Positions 3,335-50,078 of a DNA stretch of 64,000 bases are shown here, one piece after another. Each line of letters opens with the position of its first letter. Positions within the stretch are counted from its first letter, which is position 1. The notes under the pieces are model-generated. The model did not search any database and had not been told where the DNA came from. It was given only the letters and a program-made list of their open reading frames with translations. This stretch comes from a virus. Location of the stretch: positions 1 to 64,000 of IMG/VR virus record IMGVR_UViG_3300025626_001351; one strand, 5' to 3'. The position numbers and the translations under genes were made by a program.

Positions 3335-3915
3335 AATTTTAAATCTTTTCTTATATCTTTTTTTACCACGTCCAAATACTTCGTTCGTTTCTCATCTGTA
3401 ACAAATGGTACAGACCAAAATTGTTTAGTTTTTCGCCATCTGTTGAGATTCCACCCAAATACAAATGTATAAACTCCCATTACTAATCTTAACTTAACTG
3501 AATTAAGATATAATGTAACAACAGGTAACATCGGTGCACCATGTGTTATATATGTTCTAACTTTCTTATCACTAAGAAATGGTTTTGGATAAGCATACTT
3601 ACCAAATAATGGTACAAATTTATATGCAAACCCCGGCGTGAATACTTCATCAAAGAATGTTTCCATCTTTGGAACTAATCTAAACCACCAAACAGGCGAT
3701 ACAAAGTAGATATGAGTTGACCATGATACCATCTCTTGGTATTCTTTTATTAAGTCGGTTCTGTTACGATGGAGTTTATCATCATATACATCAATAACTT
3801 CATAAGTTTCTTTATTGTCTATAAGTTCATTAACAATCGTGCTGAATATACCATTATAGCAAAACGATTTATGGTCAGGATGACCAACTACTACTAAATG
3901 TTTTTTACTTGACAT
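3331..3915 (-). CDS. NAD(P)H-quinone oxidoreductase-like flavoprotein (Flavodoxin_2 fold)
   Basis: 194 residues matching the NQO1/MdaB/YwrO family: an N-terminal strand-loop VVVGHPDHKSFCYNGI for FMN/FAD phosphate, then FVSPVWWFRLVPKM, FFDEVFTPGFAYKF, and a Gly/His-containing loop THGAP near residue 125. Such enzymes carry out two-electron reduction of quinones or similar acceptors with NAD(P)H. It sits between a glycosyltransferase and a glycosyltransferase-like protein (overlaps of 4 and 11 nt), so it is co-transcribed with sugar genes. A redox flavoprotein is unusual in a phage glycan cluster; its substrate cannot be inferred. Confidence 0.8.
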   Translation of the reverse strand: MSSKKHLVVVGHPDHKSFCYNGIFSTIVNELIDNKETYEVIDVYDDKLHRNRTDLIKEYQEMVSWSTHIYFVSPVWWFRLVPKMETFFDEVFTPGFAYKFVPLFGKYAYPKPFLSDKKVRTYITHGAPMLPVVTLYLNSVKLRLVMGVYTFVFGWNLNRWRKTKQFWSVPFVTDEKRTKYLDVVKKDIRKDLKL

Positions 3916-4726
3916 ACGTCTTTACCTTATTTATTAATTCATCATAGCTTGTTACATGATGAATTGTTTGTCCTGATAGTTTTGGAAAGAATGTTTCATA
4001 TGCGTTCCACTTAACTTCGTATCCTTTAATTCCATATATAATATTCTCACCACCAAAGTATGCAGCTAATGCTGAATTACCCCCTTGTGTTGATATATGA
4101 TGGTTAGCTCTACTCATTACAAGCATTTGAGTGAAATTATAGTCTAAGTTATATTCTTCTGCTAAATCCTGCATTGTTGTTATTCCAGATTGAAAAACTA
4201 AATCTCTATCACCAAATGTCAATTGAGTCGAGTGGTCATTTACTATGTCTGTTAATCCTGGTCTATTGTACACTATATAGAATTTATCTGATAATATCTC
4301 AAATATACGACTTAATGTTGAGATATCCAAATAATTTACAGGATTACTATTCCATTCCATTTGATATTTGTTTGATACAACTACTATTGGTTTATCAAAA
4401 AACATTTGGAACATACCTTTGTAGTGTTCTTTTAAGTTAGGTGGTGACCATTTGTCTTCCCACATTAACTTATCACCAACGATTGGTCTTGAAAAGCACC
4501 CAGCTACATGATTGTGTTGTCTATAATATTGTTGATTATCTATATGGACTCTTAAAAATGGCTCTCTACTCTTGTATATTTCATCAACCCTTATATTAGG
4601 GTATAAAAGACCAGCGCCCTTAGCCGATTTGACTATGACATCATGTCCTGCTTCGTGATACCAATTAATTAAAGGTAGCGCAGCGAACAACTCATATCCA
4701 TATTCTCCGTTTACATCAAAAATCAT
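3905..4726 (-). CDS. Glycosyltransferase-like protein (GT-B type?)
   Basis: 273 residues. It begins with a strand and glycine/tyrosine-rich turn (FDVNGEYGYELFAALPLINWYHEAGHDV) as in GT-B enzymes acting on ADP-heptose or fucose donors. It ends with a donor-site-like region, SRANHHISTQGGNSALAAYFG near 206-226, similar in layout to the sugar-nucleotide loop of GT9/GT11-type proteins. I do not recognise the exact family. Position between an epimerase and glycosyltransferases supports a sugar-transfer role; this is inference. Confidence 0.55.
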   Translation of the reverse strand: MIFDVNGEYGYELFAALPLINWYHEAGHDVIVKSAKGAGLLYPNIRVDEIYKSREPFLRVHIDNQQYYRQHNHVAGCFSRPIVGDKLMWEDKWSPPNLKEHYKGMFQMFFDKPIVVVSNKYQMEWNSNPVNYLDISTLSRIFEILSDKFYIVYNRPGLTDIVNDHSTQLTFGDRDLVFQSGITTMQDLAEEYNLDYNFTQMLVMSRANHHISTQGGNSALAAYFGGENIIYGIKGYEVKWNAYETFFPKLSGQTIHHVTSYDELINKVKTYVK

Positions 4727-21881: not shown

Positions 21882-21913
21882 CTAATATACGAAATTTATT
21901 TTTAAAAACCAAA
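21882..21913 (-). promoter_or_regulatory. Promoter for gp45 operon
   Basis: TTTG-N20-TATATTAG; the -33 box lies within the last codons of gp43. The leader to the gp45 ATG is about 30 nt. Confidence 0.82.
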
Positions 21914-24421: not shown

Positions 24422-25555
24422 CTATTTTAACTTATTATGTAACTCCTTAATCATTATCTCTTCGTTCAAAGATAATTCCAAAGCTCTATTTAATGACATT
24501 TTGTCGTGTTCTTTACGGAACGTGTCATCATCTAATATTTTATCTAAATAATTAAAGAAGTCTTTTTTATATTTAAAGAACATTCCATTAGGGTCAATTT
24601 CCCTATAACAATCAGAATCATGCCAAATCATTGGAGTACCATTCATCATACAATCAGTTCCACTTACTGACCAACCATAATTTGTTTGTTTCATTTGAAC
24701 ACCAACAACACAATCTTGTAATCGTTTATAGTAATCATGTTTTGGTACTTTGGTATTGTCTACCCAAGTGTGTGGTGGTTTACCATTCAACTGAGGAATC
24801 CACACTTTGAAATCATCTCTTGTTTTTCTGTATTCTACCATCAACTCCATAAACTTTGGATACCCCTTGTATGCAGCTGCTCTGTGATTGAATACAATTA
24901 ACTTTTCTTTTGATTTCTTAACATCACTAACAATCTTTTGTTTAGGTAACCCTAAGTTCCAAACTGAAAGTATATTATCCAATTTGGTTACAAATTCTTG
25001 ATTAAAAGTATCACCTGCTTCTTTTAATACTCTATTCTTTTGGTCTTGTGTATTAATATAACAAGTATCCATTTGGGAGATACCTAATAATTCAATTGGT
25101 AACCATAGCCATTTTGGTTTACCAGCTCTATTATCAGGACCATTACATGATTTCATTTCCCACCAATGACAATAACCTATAATTTTAGTATTCATTGTTT
25201 TACGATACCTACCCACTTGTACCCAATCAGGCAGATGTGAATAGATTACATCATAATCAATGTCTTTTAACATATTAATTAACTTGTCAGATGGAAACGA
25301 CCTCTGATTCATCATGTCACCAGGTATATGAATCTGATGCTGTTTGACGTTTGGTAAGTTTAACTTCTTTGCTAACTTACCTTCAGGCATGAGAACATTA
25401 AAGAAGTAATCACCACATTCATTTAGTTTTAGAATATGATTATATATAACGTCTACGAAACTGTCTTTATCAACATTGGATGAATTAGTAATATTAGGAA
25501 TTACAAGCACCTTACGTGCTTTACTATAATCTATACTATCACCCCAAAAATTCAT
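24422..25555 (-). CDS. GT-B-like glycosyltransferase beside DNA polymerase
   Basis: 377 residues. The N-terminal half is Rossmann-like (VLVIPNITNSS, YDVIYSHLPDWVQVGRY); the C-terminal half has LIVFNHRAAAYKGYPKF, VGVQMKQTNYGWSVSGTDCMMNGTPMIWH, analogous to the donor loop of GT-B enzymes. It has its own promoter (25575-25606) and lies 3 nt ahead of gp43. That placement, apart from the main glycan cluster and beside Mom-like genes, makes a nucleic-acid base glycosyltransferase worth considering, but the acceptor is unknown. Confidence 0.65.
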   Translation of the reverse strand: MNFWGDSIDYSKARKVLVIPNITNSSNVDKDSFVDVIYNHILKLNECGDYFFNVLMPEGKLAKKLNLPNVKQHQIHIPGDMMNQRSFPSDKLINMLKDIDYDVIYSHLPDWVQVGRYRKTMNTKIIGYCHWWEMKSCNGPDNRAGKPKWLWLPIELLGISQMDTCYINTQDQKNRVLKEAGDTFNQEFVTKLDNILSVWNLGLPKQKIVSDVKKSKEKLIVFNHRAAAYKGYPKFMELMVEYRKTRDDFKVWIPQLNGKPPHTWVDNTKVPKHDYYKRLQDCVVGVQMKQTNYGWSVSGTDCMMNGTPMIWHDSDCYREIDPNGMFFKYKKDFFNYLDKILDDDTFRKEHDKMSLNRALELSLNEEIMIKELHNKLK

Positions 25556-25574: not shown

Positions 25575-25606
25575 CTAATATACGACTTTTATTTTAAACT
25601 ACCAAA
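25575..25606 (-). promoter_or_regulatory. Promoter for glycosyltransferase-gp43 operon
   Basis: TTTG-N20-TATATTAG, with the -33 box inside the 3' end of the second Mom-like gene; ATG 19 nt beyond the -7 box. Confidence 0.82.
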
Positions 25607-26393
25607 AGTTTACCTGATTTTCTGGCGTAAATGTTTCATGATGTACCACTTCTGATAGAAACTCACTTGCGTCTTTAGGATATGGACTTACTTTGTGCTT
25701 AAGTCGTTTAGTTAACTTACGTTTTTCCGATTTGTTCTGACCTAACACTTGTATATATCTGTGTTTTGCTGATTCTTTTTTTCTCCAAAATTCAGTTAAG
25801 TTCTCCTTACCAAGTTGTGTCTTTAAATGGTCAAGGTTATGACTACCCCATCGAGAAAATACAGTTCTTGAATGTATCCACTTATGTGGGTCACTTTCGA
25901 TTGATATGGAGTAGTTTGGCATTAATTGTATATCACGACAATCTTGATATAACCAATTGGTTGCTTGATAGATACCACCTAAATGCATTTGCTCGGGGTC
26001 AGCATACGATAATAACATTTTTATATTAGATGCGTTATCTTTCATCCATTTAAAAGATTGTCCCATAGCAAACGATTCAATATTTGAACCATACCCATCG
26101 TGTATAAATAATCGTGTTAGTTCTAAACACTCATCTTTTTCTAAACCATCAATAACTGATTTTATTGCCGACCTACCTACTGGATACCCATATACTAAAC
26201 ACCCTATTAATGTTTCTGTATTACCAAGAACATCCTTTTCGTCAGTTTCATAGAATACCCCAAGTGCGTATCTACACATCGTCCAAGCATGCGAATAGTG
26301 ATATTTTACAATCATTTTCTTTGCCGTAGATTTACCTATTTCTCTAATAGTAACACGAGATGTATCTACATAATGTTTATTAGCTTCTTTCAA
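25599..26393 (-). CDS. Mom-like DNA modification protein, copy 2
   Basis: 264 residues. VKYHYSHAWTMCRYALGVF, LIGCLVYGYPVG, CLELTRLFIHDGYGSNIESFA and LLSYADPEQMHLGGIYQATNW follow the phage Mu Mom pattern (HHYS, SRL, YAD-x4-H-x-G-x-IY-x-AT-x-W) of the GNAT-related proteins that modify adenine in DNA and protect from restriction. The C-terminal basic tail (KRKLTKRLKHK) could bind DNA. It is a paralog of the adjacent gene and overlaps it by 14 nt. The chemistry is inferred from Mom, not shown here. Confidence 0.8.
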   Translation of the reverse strand: MKEANKHYVDTSRVTIREIGKSTAKKMIVKYHYSHAWTMCRYALGVFYETDEKDVLGNTETLIGCLVYGYPVGRSAIKSVIDGLEKDECLELTRLFIHDGYGSNIESFAMGQSFKWMKDNASNIKMLLSYADPEQMHLGGIYQATNWLYQDCRDIQLMPNYSISIESDPHKWIHSRTVFSRWGSHNLDHLKTQLGKENLTEFWRKKESAKHRYIQVLGQNKSEKRKLTKRLKHKVSPYPKDASEFLSEVVHHETFTPENQVNFW

Positions 26394-27138
26394 TTGGGTC
26401 TAATTTTCTAATTTCTAATTCCTCTACGATACCACCTTTTGGATATGGTAATGTTGGATGTTTTAAATTCTTAAGTAACTTTCTTCGTTGACCACCCTTA
26501 GCGAGAATGTAAACATATCTGTGCTTTCGTGGTTCTTTACGAATCCAAAATGAGGTCTCCACCTGCTCTTGTATCTTTTTAGGATTGTTAGTTCCATAAT
26601 ATGGAAATATAGTTCTACCATGTTGCCATTCACCATCTTCGGTAAATTTAAAACTCCAGCTATCATTGAATCTTAACTCATTACCCTGGTACTCCCAATT
26701 AGTAGCTTGGTAAATTGTACCAGCGTGTCCTTCTTTTGGGTCTGAATATGATATTAATCCTTTTATTTGTGGTTGGTTTTCTCGTAACCATTGAAACGTC
26801 TGTCCTAAGAACCAACTCTCTATATTAGAACCATAATCGTCAAATACAAACAGTCTTACTAACTCTAAAACTTGAGTTCTATCTAATAATGGTGTAATTG
26901 ACTGACCACTTAATCTTCCGATTGGGTCACCATAACAAGCGACTCCAATTAACTTTTCACTACAATTAAAGAACTGATGTTCCTCAACGTCAGATGTAAA
27001 CAAACCTATGGCGTGAGATACCTTAGTCCATAGATGTGAATAATGGTTTTTTACTATGATATCCTTGGCGACAGATTTGGAAATTTTTCTAACTGATAAC
27101 TTTGATGTGTCACAATAAGATTTTCCCTCTTCTTTCAT
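26380..27138 (-). CDS. Mom-like DNA modification protein, copy 1
   Basis: 252 residues, the first of two tandem Mom-like genes. VKNHYSHLWTKVSHAIGLF, LIGVACYGDPIGR, VLELVRLFVFDDYGSNIESW and LISYSDPKEGHAGTIYQATNW mirror copy 2 but with clear sequence divergence, so this is an old duplication. The basic tail GQRRKLLKNLKHP is also shared. The start overlaps the upstream HTH gene by one base, so both copies and the HTH gene are probably read from the promoter at 27356-27387. Confidence 0.8.
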   Translation of the reverse strand: MKEEGKSYCDTSKLSVRKISKSVAKDIIVKNHYSHLWTKVSHAIGLFTSDVEEHQFFNCSEKLIGVACYGDPIGRLSGQSITPLLDRTQVLELVRLFVFDDYGSNIESWFLGQTFQWLRENQPQIKGLISYSDPKEGHAGTIYQATNWEYQGNELRFNDSWSFKFTEDGEWQHGRTIFPYYGTNNPKKIQEQVETSFWIRKEPRKHRYVYILAKGGQRRKLLKNLKHPTLPYPKGGIVEELEIRKLDPIERS

Positions 27139-27341
27139 TATTGATAGTCGTTAAATTCTCCAAATAAAATGTGTGTCCATGTTTGTCCTTTAACAATCTT
27201 TCGAATGTTGGCTGGGGATACTCCATTGTTTTTAGCTAATACTCTAATATTTCTATGTCCAACAGACCACAATTGTCTAATAGACCTAACTTGTCGTTCT
27301 GTTAATTTATGTGCGGGATGTGATTCACCTCTTAATGCCAT
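27138..27341 (-). CDS. Small helix-turn-helix DNA-binding protein
   Basis: 67 residues from ATG 27341; a GTG at 27356 would lie within the promoter's -7 element and is unlikely. GESHPAHKLTERQVRSIRQL then NIRVLAKNNGVSPANIRKIVKGQTW is the short HTH module common in phage homing-endonuclease tails and stand-alone regulators. It is first in the operon with two Mom-like genes and lies about 14 nt after the promoter, so it may autoregulate this modification operon. Confidence 0.7.
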   Translation of the reverse strand: MALRGESHPAHKLTERQVRSIRQLWSVGHRNIRVLAKNNGVSPANIRKIVKGQTWTHILFGEFNDYQ

Positions 27342-27355
27342 TCTAAATCTTTTCA

Positions 27356-27387
27356 CTAATATACGAATTTATTTTGTAATTTCCAAA
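27356..27387 (-). promoter_or_regulatory. Promoter for HTH-Mom operon
   Basis: TTTG-N20-TATATTAG, with the -33 box inside the 3' end of the dioxygenase gene; the preferred HTH start (27341) lies 14 nt beyond the -7 box. Confidence 0.82.
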
Positions 27388-27944
27388 CTTAAGTCACCAT
27401 TTCTTACACCACTTGGTGGGTCTGTCCATAAGTTTATAGCTATGGCGCTTCTAAGACCTCTTGTTACAGGTGTAACTTTATGATGATGATATCCAGCTGG
27501 AAATATAACCAATCTATTTTTCTTTGGTGCAATACATTCTGGAATTGTATCAGGGGTTGTATATGGGTTTTCTTCATATATTTCAAGAAACCCACCATCT
27601 ATATCATTTTCAATAGGATAATAGACCGTACCAATTATTGGACTGACAATTTCACCTGTTTTTAAGTAAAGTGCTTCGTCTTTATCAAGATGAAATGGTA
27701 ACCCCTCAGGTTTAGTTTCATCATACTGACCTGTCCAATATTCAAATCCACTAACAGACATCTGCTTATATGGTGATGCTTCACCCCAAATAGCTTGTAT
27801 CAGCCGTTTTTTAAGAGTGTTTGCTGGTGTGTTCCACCAACCATCCCACCACATATATTGCCCACCATTATCGAAAAAGGTTTTGTCATTTTGCAAGTCG
27901 TTCAATAACGACTCGTCTTTAATAAAATCATCTATTACAATCAT
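27369..27944 (-). CDS. 2-oxoglutarate/Fe(II) dioxygenase
   Basis: 191 residues with a double-stranded beta-helix pattern: PFHLDKDEAL (HxD iron ligands), GTVYYPI, GGFLEIY, FPAGYHHHKVTPV (distal His) and RGLRSAIAINLW (Arg for 2-oxoglutarate). Resembles prolyl-hydroxylase-like phage enzymes, and its end motifs recall the 63256-63858 enzyme. Substrate unknown: protein, nucleotide or sugar hydroxylation are all possible. It overlaps glf by 4 nt and its 3' end contains the promoter for the Mom operon. Confidence 0.87.
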   Translation of the reverse strand: MIVIDDFIKDESLLNDLQNDKTFFDNGGQYMWWDGWWNTPANTLKKRLIQAIWGEASPYKQMSVSGFEYWTGQYDETKPEGLPFHLDKDEALYLKTGEIVSPIIGTVYYPIENDIDGGFLEIYEENPYTTPDTIPECIAPKKNRLVIFPAGYHHHKVTPVTRGLRSAIAINLWTDPPSGVRNGDLSLEITK

Positions 27945-34636: not shown

Positions 34637-34668
34637 CTAATATACGAAATTTAATTTTACTATCCAAA
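34637..34668 (-). promoter_or_regulatory. Promoter for gp41 helicase
   Basis: TTTG-N20-TATATTAG; the helicase ATG starts 7 nt after the -7 box, leaving almost no leader. Confidence 0.82.
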
Positions 34669-42353: not shown

Positions 42354-42384
42354 CTAATATACGAAAAATAAATGAGACTACAAG
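42354..42384 (-). promoter_or_regulatory. Promoter for Pol I-like gene
   Basis: CTTG-N19-TATATTAG, a slightly weaker -33 box. The ATG begins 6 nt after the -7 box. Confidence 0.7.
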
Positions 42385-46970: not shown

Positions 46971-49900
46971 TTATTGGGTTCTTGTAAATGTTCCAAATAT
47001 ATTATCAGCTTTATACTTATGTAATCCGTTACCAAGTACAGTACACCCGACTGAAATATCTATACCCATTGGTAATTGATAATCTATGTCCCATGGAGTG
47101 TCATCTGAGTAAGTATATGATAACGTTGTTAATATCATTGGGGTTTGATTATATAATTGACCTATTGTTAACTTTAGGTCAGTAGCACCTGGAGCTGTAT
47201 ATCCAACACTAGCATATTGAGGCATTGTATATGTAGATAAGCGTTCTAATTTAGTCCACAACGGCTCCATCTCTATTCGAGATGTTGGATACACTTTAAA
47301 GTTAAATGAAATATCTCTTTTAAAAGTATCATATACATAAACAGGTTCTGCTCTACCAGTATACTTTATATCCGTATAACCTGGTGAAAAGTTTTCTGAT
47401 AATCCAGATATAGTTCCTCTAAATTGTATATTATCTCCTGCTCCGGCCGTTTTAAAAACTAATGGAATTATATCAGTCCCAGTCGTTCCAATTGTAGAAG
47501 CTTGAACTTCATCGTAGTAACCTTTATAGTTAGCTGCATCTGAATATGTTATCGTCCACTTATCACGAACCTTTCCATCAGTTTTGAACATTTTACCAGG
47601 AGTACCAAATTTATAGTTGGTTTCAAGGTTCTTTGACGTAAAGTCAGATTCAGTAGCAAATCCTTTTTGTTGACTAGTACCTACATCTCTAAAATCTTTA
47701 GGTATAATAGGTGGTTGTCCTGTTGATAATTTAGCCTTATTCTGAAGGTTCTTGTAAGACATTCCATTAAAGTCTTTAATGTCATTTAATGCACCAGCTG
47801 TATTTCCTTCACTTGATAGTAGGTTTTCACCTGGATACTTCTTCTTATGGGTATCATCAATATCACCTAATACTTGTTGAGTATTTCCGAACTTTAACTT
47901 ATCTGTCTTGTCAGCTGGTACATCGTCATTATACGTTTTAGCATCTGAAGCGTATGGATTATACTTTTGTGCTAATATATCTATGTTTTTCTTACCATCA
48001 GTTATATAAGGACTTGTAGTTCTACCATCTCTATCTTTTTGTAAAACTCCTTTGGATAGTTCGATGATTTTATCTGAATCTTCAGCTAATTCACCATTAT
48101 CGAATTTTTTTAGATTTTCAGTATAAGTTCCACTTCCCTCACCCAACAAGGCCATAGGATTAAATCTTTGAAAGAACCTTACTCCCGTTTGTGCACCATT
48201 TCTATTACCAAAGTCTTGGCCAGCATTGTGATATCCTAATGTAGAAGTCCCACGAGATGTTAAACTTATACCAAGCCCATATACGGAATCAAATCCACCA
48301 TTATTTTTTAAAGTAGATGGAAACGGCATTCCCGGAGCAATCATTGGCCCAGCTTTTACTAATTGCTCATAAAAATCACTTATCTTATCTTTATATCCAC
48401 TAAGACCTAATTTTTTGTACTTACCTGCTTTATCTTGTAAGATTACACCACTTCTATCGGGACGTAATCCTATCAGCCCACCACCAACACCTGCAAGTAA
48501 GTTTATTGGAGTCCAAGTTCTACCAAATGCGTTTGCTTTTTGTGTACCAAATTGTCTAACAGACCAAAGTAGTCCTTTTACTGATAAAAAGAATGAACCT
48601 AAACGTACTAAATCAATTGCAGCTCTATTTAATGATGTTACTGTACCACCTCTGATAAATCCATCATCAATTCCTAACCCAGTCAAATCCCAATTTTGTG
48701 GTTCGGTTTTATTTTTCCTTTGAATACCCCTTAGTACATAAGGCTGTTTGAAAATACTTAACCTATTTGATGCATCATCTTGTAGATTAAATTTGTTGTA
48801 CATATTATCTAAAAACGATGGTGAGTTTTTTTGTTGTGATATGGTTTCTAATGAAAAGTTTGGATACAAGAAAGTACCAGCGTCATAATATTTACCAGAA
48901 TTAGGTGAATATCTTGGCGACCCTGCAATTTCAGAACCTACTTTATATTGACCATATCCCGGTGTAAATGCTAGACCTGGAAATGCGTTATCAAAATTAC
49001 TTAATAATGAATTTGAACTATTAAATTCTGTACCTTCAATACCAGTAAATTTAGTATCATCGATAGTTTTCATAAATGGTGAGAATCCAACAGCTTTTTC
49101 ATCTGTAATATAATTTACAGTTTCAAAACTCTTCCCTTCACCTTCTAATTTTGGACTAAACCCAAATGGGTCAGTTGTTATATTACCTTTAAACTTATCA
49201 CCTTGATTTAATACTTGTGTATCAGTTTCACCTAAAAACTTAGAACTTATATCAGATGGTATTTGGTCAGTTTCACCTAAAAAGTTAGAACTTCTGTCAG
49301 ATAGGTTAGGAGTTGTTTCACCTAAGAAGTTAGAACTTATATCTGATTCATTAGGAGTTGTTTCACCTAAGAAGTTAGAAGTGTTGTCAGCTTCATTAGG
49401 AGTTGTTTCACCTAAAAAGTTAGAACTTCTGTCAGATAGGTTAGGAGTTGTTTCACCTAAAAATTGTTCTGTAAGTGTTGATTCTTTTGGTGTTGTTTCA
49501 CCTAAAAAGTTTTGTGTAAATTTAAAAGTAGCAGGAGTTGTTTCACCTTTAAATATATCACCTTGAGTAGCTTCAGTAGGAGTTGTTTCACCTTTAAATA
49601 TATCACCTTGAGTAGCTTCAGTAGGAGTTGTTTCACCTTTAAATATATCACCTTGAGTAGCTTCAGTAGGAGTAGTCTCTCCTTTGAACTTATCACCTTG
49701 AGTAGCTTCAGTAGGAGTAGTCTCTCCTTTGAACTTATCACCTTGTTGTACTTCAGTAGTAGTAGTTTCTCCTTTGAACTTATCACCTTGTTGTACTTCA
49801 GCAGTTTTAGTTTCACCTAAAAATCGTTCTGCCAAAGACATTGGTTTAGGGTCAGGTAGTCCAGCAAGTTTATCAATGTTACCAGATGGTAATATTTTTA

Positions 49901-50078
49901 CATCCACTCCTACTTTTTCAGGAGTTACTTTTGGAGCTAATACTTTTTTACCTTGTACCTTATCACTTAATGGAGTTGTATTGAATGACTCTGGTTGTAC
50001 TGTCTCTTTTTTATCAAGAGGTGTACTTGTTGGTTTTCTGAATTTAGATAAATCTGATTTTAAGTCTTTAAGTGCCAT
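46971..50078 (-). CDS. Baseplate-associated protein with fifteen 15-residue repeats
   Basis: 1035 residues. Residues 86-310 are fifteen consecutive 15-residue units, each starting F(L/K)GE or a variant, with TTPTEATQGD or TTPNxSDxSSN bodies. A long Gly/Tyr/Asn-rich middle follows (about 360-830). The C-terminal ~190 residues (YTGRAEPVYVYDTFKRDISF, MEPLWTKLERLSTYT, DIDYQLPMGIDISVG) form a beta domain typical of baseplate/tail proteins in marine T4-like phages. It lies between the tape measure and gp53-like genes. The repeat array may be a flexible, Thr-rich stalk or a glycosylation target. Confidence 0.7.
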   Translation of the reverse strand: MALKDLKSDLSKFRKPTSTPLDKKETVQPESFNTTPLSDKVQGKKVLAPKVTPEKVGVDVKILPSGNIDKLAGLPDPKPMSLAERFLGETKTAEVQQGDKFKGETTTTEVQQGDKFKGETTPTEATQGDKFKGETTPTEATQGDIFKGETTPTEATQGDIFKGETTPTEATQGDIFKGETTPATFKFTQNFLGETTPKESTLTEQFLGETTPNLSDRSSNFLGETTPNEADNTSNFLGETTPNESDISSNFLGETTPNLSDRSSNFLGETDQIPSDISSKFLGETDTQVLNQGDKFKGNITTDPFGFSPKLEGEGKSFETVNYITDEKAVGFSPFMKTIDDTKFTGIEGTEFNSSNSLLSNFDNAFPGLAFTPGYGQYKVGSEIAGSPRYSPNSGKYYDAGTFLYPNFSLETISQQKNSPSFLDNMYNKFNLQDDASNRLSIFKQPYVLRGIQRKNKTEPQNWDLTGLGIDDGFIRGGTVTSLNRAAIDLVRLGSFFLSVKGLLWSVRQFGTQKANAFGRTWTPINLLAGVGGGLIGLRPDRSGVILQDKAGKYKKLGLSGYKDKISDFYEQLVKAGPMIAPGMPFPSTLKNNGGFDSVYGLGISLTSRGTSTLGYHNAGQDFGNRNGAQTGVRFFQRFNPMALLGEGSGTYTENLKKFDNGELAEDSDKIIELSKGVLQKDRDGRTTSPYITDGKKNIDILAQKYNPYASDAKTYNDDVPADKTDKLKFGNTQQVLGDIDDTHKKKYPGENLLSSEGNTAGALNDIKDFNGMSYKNLQNKAKLSTGQPPIIPKDFRDVGTSQQKGFATESDFTSKNLETNYKFGTPGKMFKTDGKVRDKWTITYSDAANYKGYYDEVQASTIGTTGTDIIPLVFKTAGAGDNIQFRGTISGLSENFSPGYTDIKYTGRAEPVYVYDTFKRDISFNFKVYPTSRIEMEPLWTKLERLSTYTMPQYASVGYTAPGATDLKLTIGQLYNQTPMILTTLSYTYSDDTPWDIDYQLPMGIDISVGCTVLGNGLHKYKADNIFGTFTRTQ
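49149..49823 (-). repeat. Fifteen 45-bp in-frame tandem repeats
   Basis: Each unit encodes 15 residues with Phe at position 1 (positions 86 + 15n of the protein; the last unit is degenerate). The four to five central units (about 49550-49735) are nearly identical in DNA; outer units diverge in blocks (TTPTEATQGD type and TTPNxSDxSSN type). All three frames on both strands stay open through much of the array. Confidence 0.95.

Follow-up and report, generated by a model that had tools for sequence, protein, structure and literature searches.

The Mom protein of bacteriophage Mu converts adenine in DNA to N6-carbamoylmethyl-adenine within a short degenerate sequence context, and the modification blocks many restriction enzymes. 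It is a rare non-methyl modification of adenine that is known chiefly from single-copy genes. Mu Com activates translation as an RNA-binding zinc-finger protein (PMC6483171), and in jumbo phages Mom typically occurs as a domain joined to a restriction-type endonuclease (PMC7824862). Here we describe a locus in which two divergent Mom genes, termed MomA and MomB, follow a small HTH gene on the 69.8-kb viral contig IMGVR_UViG_3300025626_001351; the window, i.e. the whole stretch of DNA that was analysed, comprises 64,000 nucleotides of this record. The tail sheath and the DNA polymerase place the phage among the T4-like phages, and its nearest catalogued relatives are Microcystis phage Mel-JY01 (sheath 56%, polymerase 47%) and the Flavobacterium immuto phages (sheath 53%); no Mom gene was found in these relatives. 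The carriers of the cassette are a lineage of large, uncultivated T4-like aquatic phages. In the structural region of the window, an open reading frame at 46971-50078 encodes a large protein with near-identical repeats of the FLGETTP or FKGETTP type near 49500-49820.

The three genes lie on the minus strand at the positions named in the original prediction, and they are transcribed in the order HTH gene (27341-27138), MomA (27138-26380) and MomB (26393-25599), with overlapping ends. The HTH protein has 67 aa when read from its ATG and 72 aa from a GTG at 27356, which is also open. MomA, the upstream Mom copy, is a single-domain protein of 252 aa; the final base of the HTH stop codon is also the first base of the MomA ATG start. 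MomB, the downstream copy, is a single-domain protein of 264 aa, and its frame, which starts with TTG, overlaps the end of MomA by 14 bases. At 27356-27386 on the minus strand, immediately before the HTH gene, we find a promoter-like site (TTGG-N-TCGTATATTAG) that resembles the Bacteroidota -33/-7 type. With three overlapping genes in one run that begins at this site, the cassette looks like a single transcription unit, in agreement with the earlier suggestion that the HTH gene is co-transcribed with the Mom genes. A second site of the same motif, at the MomB end (25575-25605, minus strand), marks the start of the next unit, that of a glycosyltransferase gene (24422-25555). The neighbouring 2OG-Fe(II) oxygenase gene (27369-27944) was rejected as a part of the system, because it does not stand beside the cassette at several loci with flanking sequence (L007, L029, L109).

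The promoter-like site TTG-N-TCGTATATTAG is repeated on the minus strand of the window at 21882-21912, 25575-25605, 27356-27386, 34637-34667 and 42354-42383, and five exact copies of the 12-mer TCGTATATTAGT are present in the window, all on the minus strand and each shortly upstream of a gene start. Among the matches listed, the pattern TTTG-N18-21-TAnnTT[TA]G lies upstream of the HTH gene at 24 of the 68 distinct loci; shuffled sequence gives a mean of 0.2. The sites of the window resemble the vegetative promoter of Bacteroidota, and because of this resemblance the host of the phage is likely a member of the Bacteroidota.

Both proteins had been predicted to belong to the Mom family on the basis of shared motifs (HYS, EL.RLF and SY[SA]DP-x3-H-x-G-x-IYQATNW), which are indeed present in each copy, and the profile search that had been proposed as a check places both in the family. 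The Pfam Mom profile (PF25680, curated cut-off 27.1 bits) matches MomA with 156.1 bits and MomB with 165.2 bits over positions 2-202 of its 202, and PHROG 1384, "Mom-like DNA modification protein", matches them with 177 bits (7e-52) and 156 bits (3e-45), respectively. By sequence, Mu Mom was also found in the PDB with either copy (phmmer to entry 8bv8; MomA 5.6e-12, MomB 4.3e-7). PADLOC and NCBIfam returned no match for either copy. An AlphaFold model of MomA built from 63 sequences has a mean pLDDT of 89.3 (the same protein modelled alone, without an alignment, gave a pLDDT of 35 and a useless model), and in a Foldseek comparison with the PDB its best match is Mu Mom, 8bv8, with E=1.4e-13 and TM-scores of 0.64/0.71. 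The next GNAT follows at 1.3e-4, nine orders of magnitude weaker. The profile and fold matches together rule out both a chance resemblance and membership in an unrelated GNAT family, the outcome that would have spoken against the prediction. The model thus indicates that MomA has the GNAT-like fold of Mu Mom; the fold was modelled for MomA alone, to which MomB is 44% identical over 243 residues.

The active site is retained as well. Our source for the essential serine of Mu Mom is the title of PDB entry 8bv8, "inactive mutant S124A", in a 241-aa numbering; this residue is S114 in the 231-residue numbering, and the 8bv8 chain carries A in place of the S encoded by the Mu gene. Its equivalents, S108 in MomA and S107 in MomB, are serine in 28 of 28 MomA and 27 of 27 MomB clade representatives. 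Among the same rows, the equivalents of Mu H48, Y49, R101, E113, Y149 and N153 are invariant in both clades. The two copies in the window are identical to each other at the equivalents of H48, Y49, R101, D139 and Y149, which belong to the active site of Mu Mom. The aspartate equivalent to D139, intact in the window, is replaced in other phages by Asn in three MomB and by Ser in one basal MomA, and these few proteins may have little or no activity.

Scans of IMG/VR recovered the order HTH-MomA-MomB in dozens of distinct phage contigs, and because the same order recurs so often, the arrangement is far beyond chance. At least 83 distinct MomA genes remained after identical ones were removed; the scans were seeded with patterns from these proteins, and the contig counts, made among the matches listed, show recurrence and not true frequency. 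Among those matches, 70 distinct MomA genes have 1.5 kb or more of downstream sequence, and MomB comes next after 66 of them; an HTH orthologue lies directly upstream of MomA at 74 of 79 loci. The MomB frame overlaps MomA in 44 of the 66 pairs, and in the other 22 the genes stand apart, mostly with a short segment between them that holds a small open frame (all among the matches listed). MomA is found without an adjacent MomB in L171 and in three loci of a basal MomA type (L158, L159, L172), the latter on incomplete contigs, and MomB occurs alone in the relatives L046-L058, also on incomplete contigs; since many contigs are fragments, an absent partner is weak evidence.

Searches of whole records show that two Mom genes are the rule, with three in several records. 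A third Mom lies between MomA and MomB in two of the 22 separated pairs (L140 and L141). There, at 3740-4456, and also in L142, MomA, a diverged Mom that is 36-40% identical to both, and MomB form a tandem trio. Shorter additional Mom-family genes that exceed the Pfam cut-off occur elsewhere in the same phages (L007:11188-11841, L035:9310-9945, L059:9118-9777 and L042:5372-6001). In L138 and L147, MomA and MomB are separated by a gene that has at least 145 codons and no significant Pfam match, and in G050:C1:7924-8541 a third Mom copy is broken by a TGA and a TAA and is apparently a decaying gene. As the original prediction held, a single copy is usual in described phages: each catalogued phage with a detectable Mom has it at one place only, and with tblastn of two queries against 50,697 phages (257 and 307 records) we detected no second Mom, although very diverged copies could escape such a search. 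In the papers searched, we found none on Mom-like genes or on multiple Mom copies; that the pairs are confined, among our matches, to metagenomic phages may be the reason.

A maximum-likelihood tree, inferred with a quick method and with SH-aLRT as the only support measure, separates MomA (28 rows) and MomB (27 rows) into two clades with a support of 99 each, and the single-type Mom genes of other phages branch near the bases of these clades. Because the two copies form separate, well-supported clades, the tree indicates that the duplication is old, and a recent duplication is ruled out. Both copies evolve under strong purifying selection (median dN/dS 0.079 for MomA and 0.089 for MomB), which argues against decay of either. 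Together with the intact active sites, this rules out a degenerating second copy, the replacements at the D139 equivalent being the exceptions. At seven positions, among them S41/R41, D159/P159, S160/N160 and Y210/Q215, each clade is fixed for a residue of its own; these differences are consistent with distinct roles of MomA and MomB, but they are few and could have a structural cause.

The two copies are kept together with the HTH gene in dozens of related viruses, and this joint retention suggests that they have different jobs. We propose, with about even confidence, that HTH-MomA-MomB is a conserved anti-restriction operon with two active Mom enzymes that differ in the DNA sequence context they modify. 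An old duplication would have given rise to MomA and MomB, followed by specialisation, most likely by sequence context. Both copies would modify adenine in DNA as Mu Mom does, with carbamoylmethyl-adenine as the probable product, and the two together would hide a larger number of restriction sites than a single enzyme. That other phages of the group have a third Mom copy, or copies apart from the pair, counts in favour of this explanation. That the paralogues write different marks, be it in context or in modified base, and that exchange of partners between phages changes what host restriction cannot see, is a proposal to which we give somewhat less than an even chance.

Redundant copies maintained for dosage or timing, with the same activity at another level of expression, would also keep both active sites intact, as observed. 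Translation of the two may differ, given that the MomB start position is TTG in 45 of 71 and ATG in 24 of 71 distinct genes, against ATG in 58 of 59 for MomA (among the matches listed). However, the overlap of the genes may dictate the TTG of MomB, and two long-separated, separately conserved clades with fixed differences exceed what dosage needs; we consider this alternative unlikely.

The original prediction also offered a heterodimer. As an obligate partnership of MomA and MomB, either as one enzyme that has two active sites or with catalysis in one subunit and recognition in the other, it would agree with the overlap and joint retention of the genes and with the structure of the Mu Mom family, which is counted among experimentally validated dimers (PMC13232217). 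The identity matrices of MomA and MomB correlate between phages (Mantel r 0.53, 0 of 2000 permutations), but such a correlation is expected from shared inheritance alone, and both clades retain a complete active site. Moreover, the identities of the two disagree strongly in some phage pairs, with NrdA at a steady 84-86%. Compared with the window, L022 has identities of 84% for the polymerase, 86% for NrdA and 90% for MomB, but of only 65% for MomA; the reverse is seen with L109, which reaches 84% for NrdA and 85% for MomA but only 59% for MomB. Gaps between MomA and MomB identity of more than 20 points, in either direction, are few (75 of 2,211 pairs). Replacement of one partner by recombination is the simplest reading that these values suggest, as drawn from identities and not from a recombination test. 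The discordance fits independently acting, modular enzymes and weakens the case for an obligate heterodimer, which we regard as distinctly unlikely.

More doubtful again is a division of labour by chemistry on the same DNA, where one copy would add another acyl group, modify another base or carry out a second step on the Mom product. The old divergence and the fixed clade differences would suit two different enzymes that are both kept, but in the window's two copies all mapped equivalents of the Mu active site are the same, which favours a shared chemistry. The acceptors of GNAT enzymes vary widely, and one or both copies might now act on a tRNA, a protein or a host factor, but this is very improbable, since the best match in fold and in sequence is Mu Mom and the essential serine is kept.

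The maintained, diverged pair provides a natural comparison for what sets the target context of Mom. It also suggests that some phages combine several Mom specificities, as hosts combine several restriction specificities.

Among the known systems, the closest catalogued relative is the Mom of Polaribacter phage P12002L, which is 45% identical to both copies. It lies outside the MomA and MomB clades in the tree and, unlike the window's genes, is a single copy that adjoins a DNA methylase gene and not an HTH gene. The jumbo phages likewise carry Mom domains in large genomes, but there the domain is part of a fusion, whereas here it forms two single-domain proteins. In LR756508.1 (W03; L251-L254), a 484-kb uncultured phage, we observed four weak Mom-profile matches, one of them containing stops, at 159414-218044 in long open frames (510-797 codons); these are perhaps fused proteins as in the jumbo phages. 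The HTH-Mom order of Microbacterium phage BarnCat is a loose parallel only, as its HTH protein has no obvious resemblance to that of the window.

The com-mom operon of Mu resembles the cassette in that the gene for a small nucleic-acid-binding protein precedes mom and overlaps its start, and it differs in that the product of the window gene is unrelated to Com, being an HTH protein that resembles the corresponding part of HNH endonucleases. In the window this protein has only a weak Pfam match, to HTH_28; an orthologue clears HTH_7 with 25.2 bits (cut-off 23.8). It matches PHROG families of HTH proteins and HNH endonucleases, and in phage HNH endonucleases the similarity is to the HTH region. 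Only this region (67-72 aa) is present, with neither an HNH nuclease domain nor a CxxC zinc finger of the Com type in the protein. A regulatory role is plausible from its position and by comparison with the com-mom order of Mu, and is offered as a guess. With Mu Mom itself (8bv8; PF25680; PHROG 1384) the locus shares the full-length family match, the predicted fold of MomA, and the essential serine with its neighbouring active-site residues. It differs in lying in a T4-like phage that has no Com gene at this place, and in carrying two adjacent paralogues where Mu has one copy. MomA and MomB are thus ordinary members of the Mom family, and what is new is the maintained paralogous pair.
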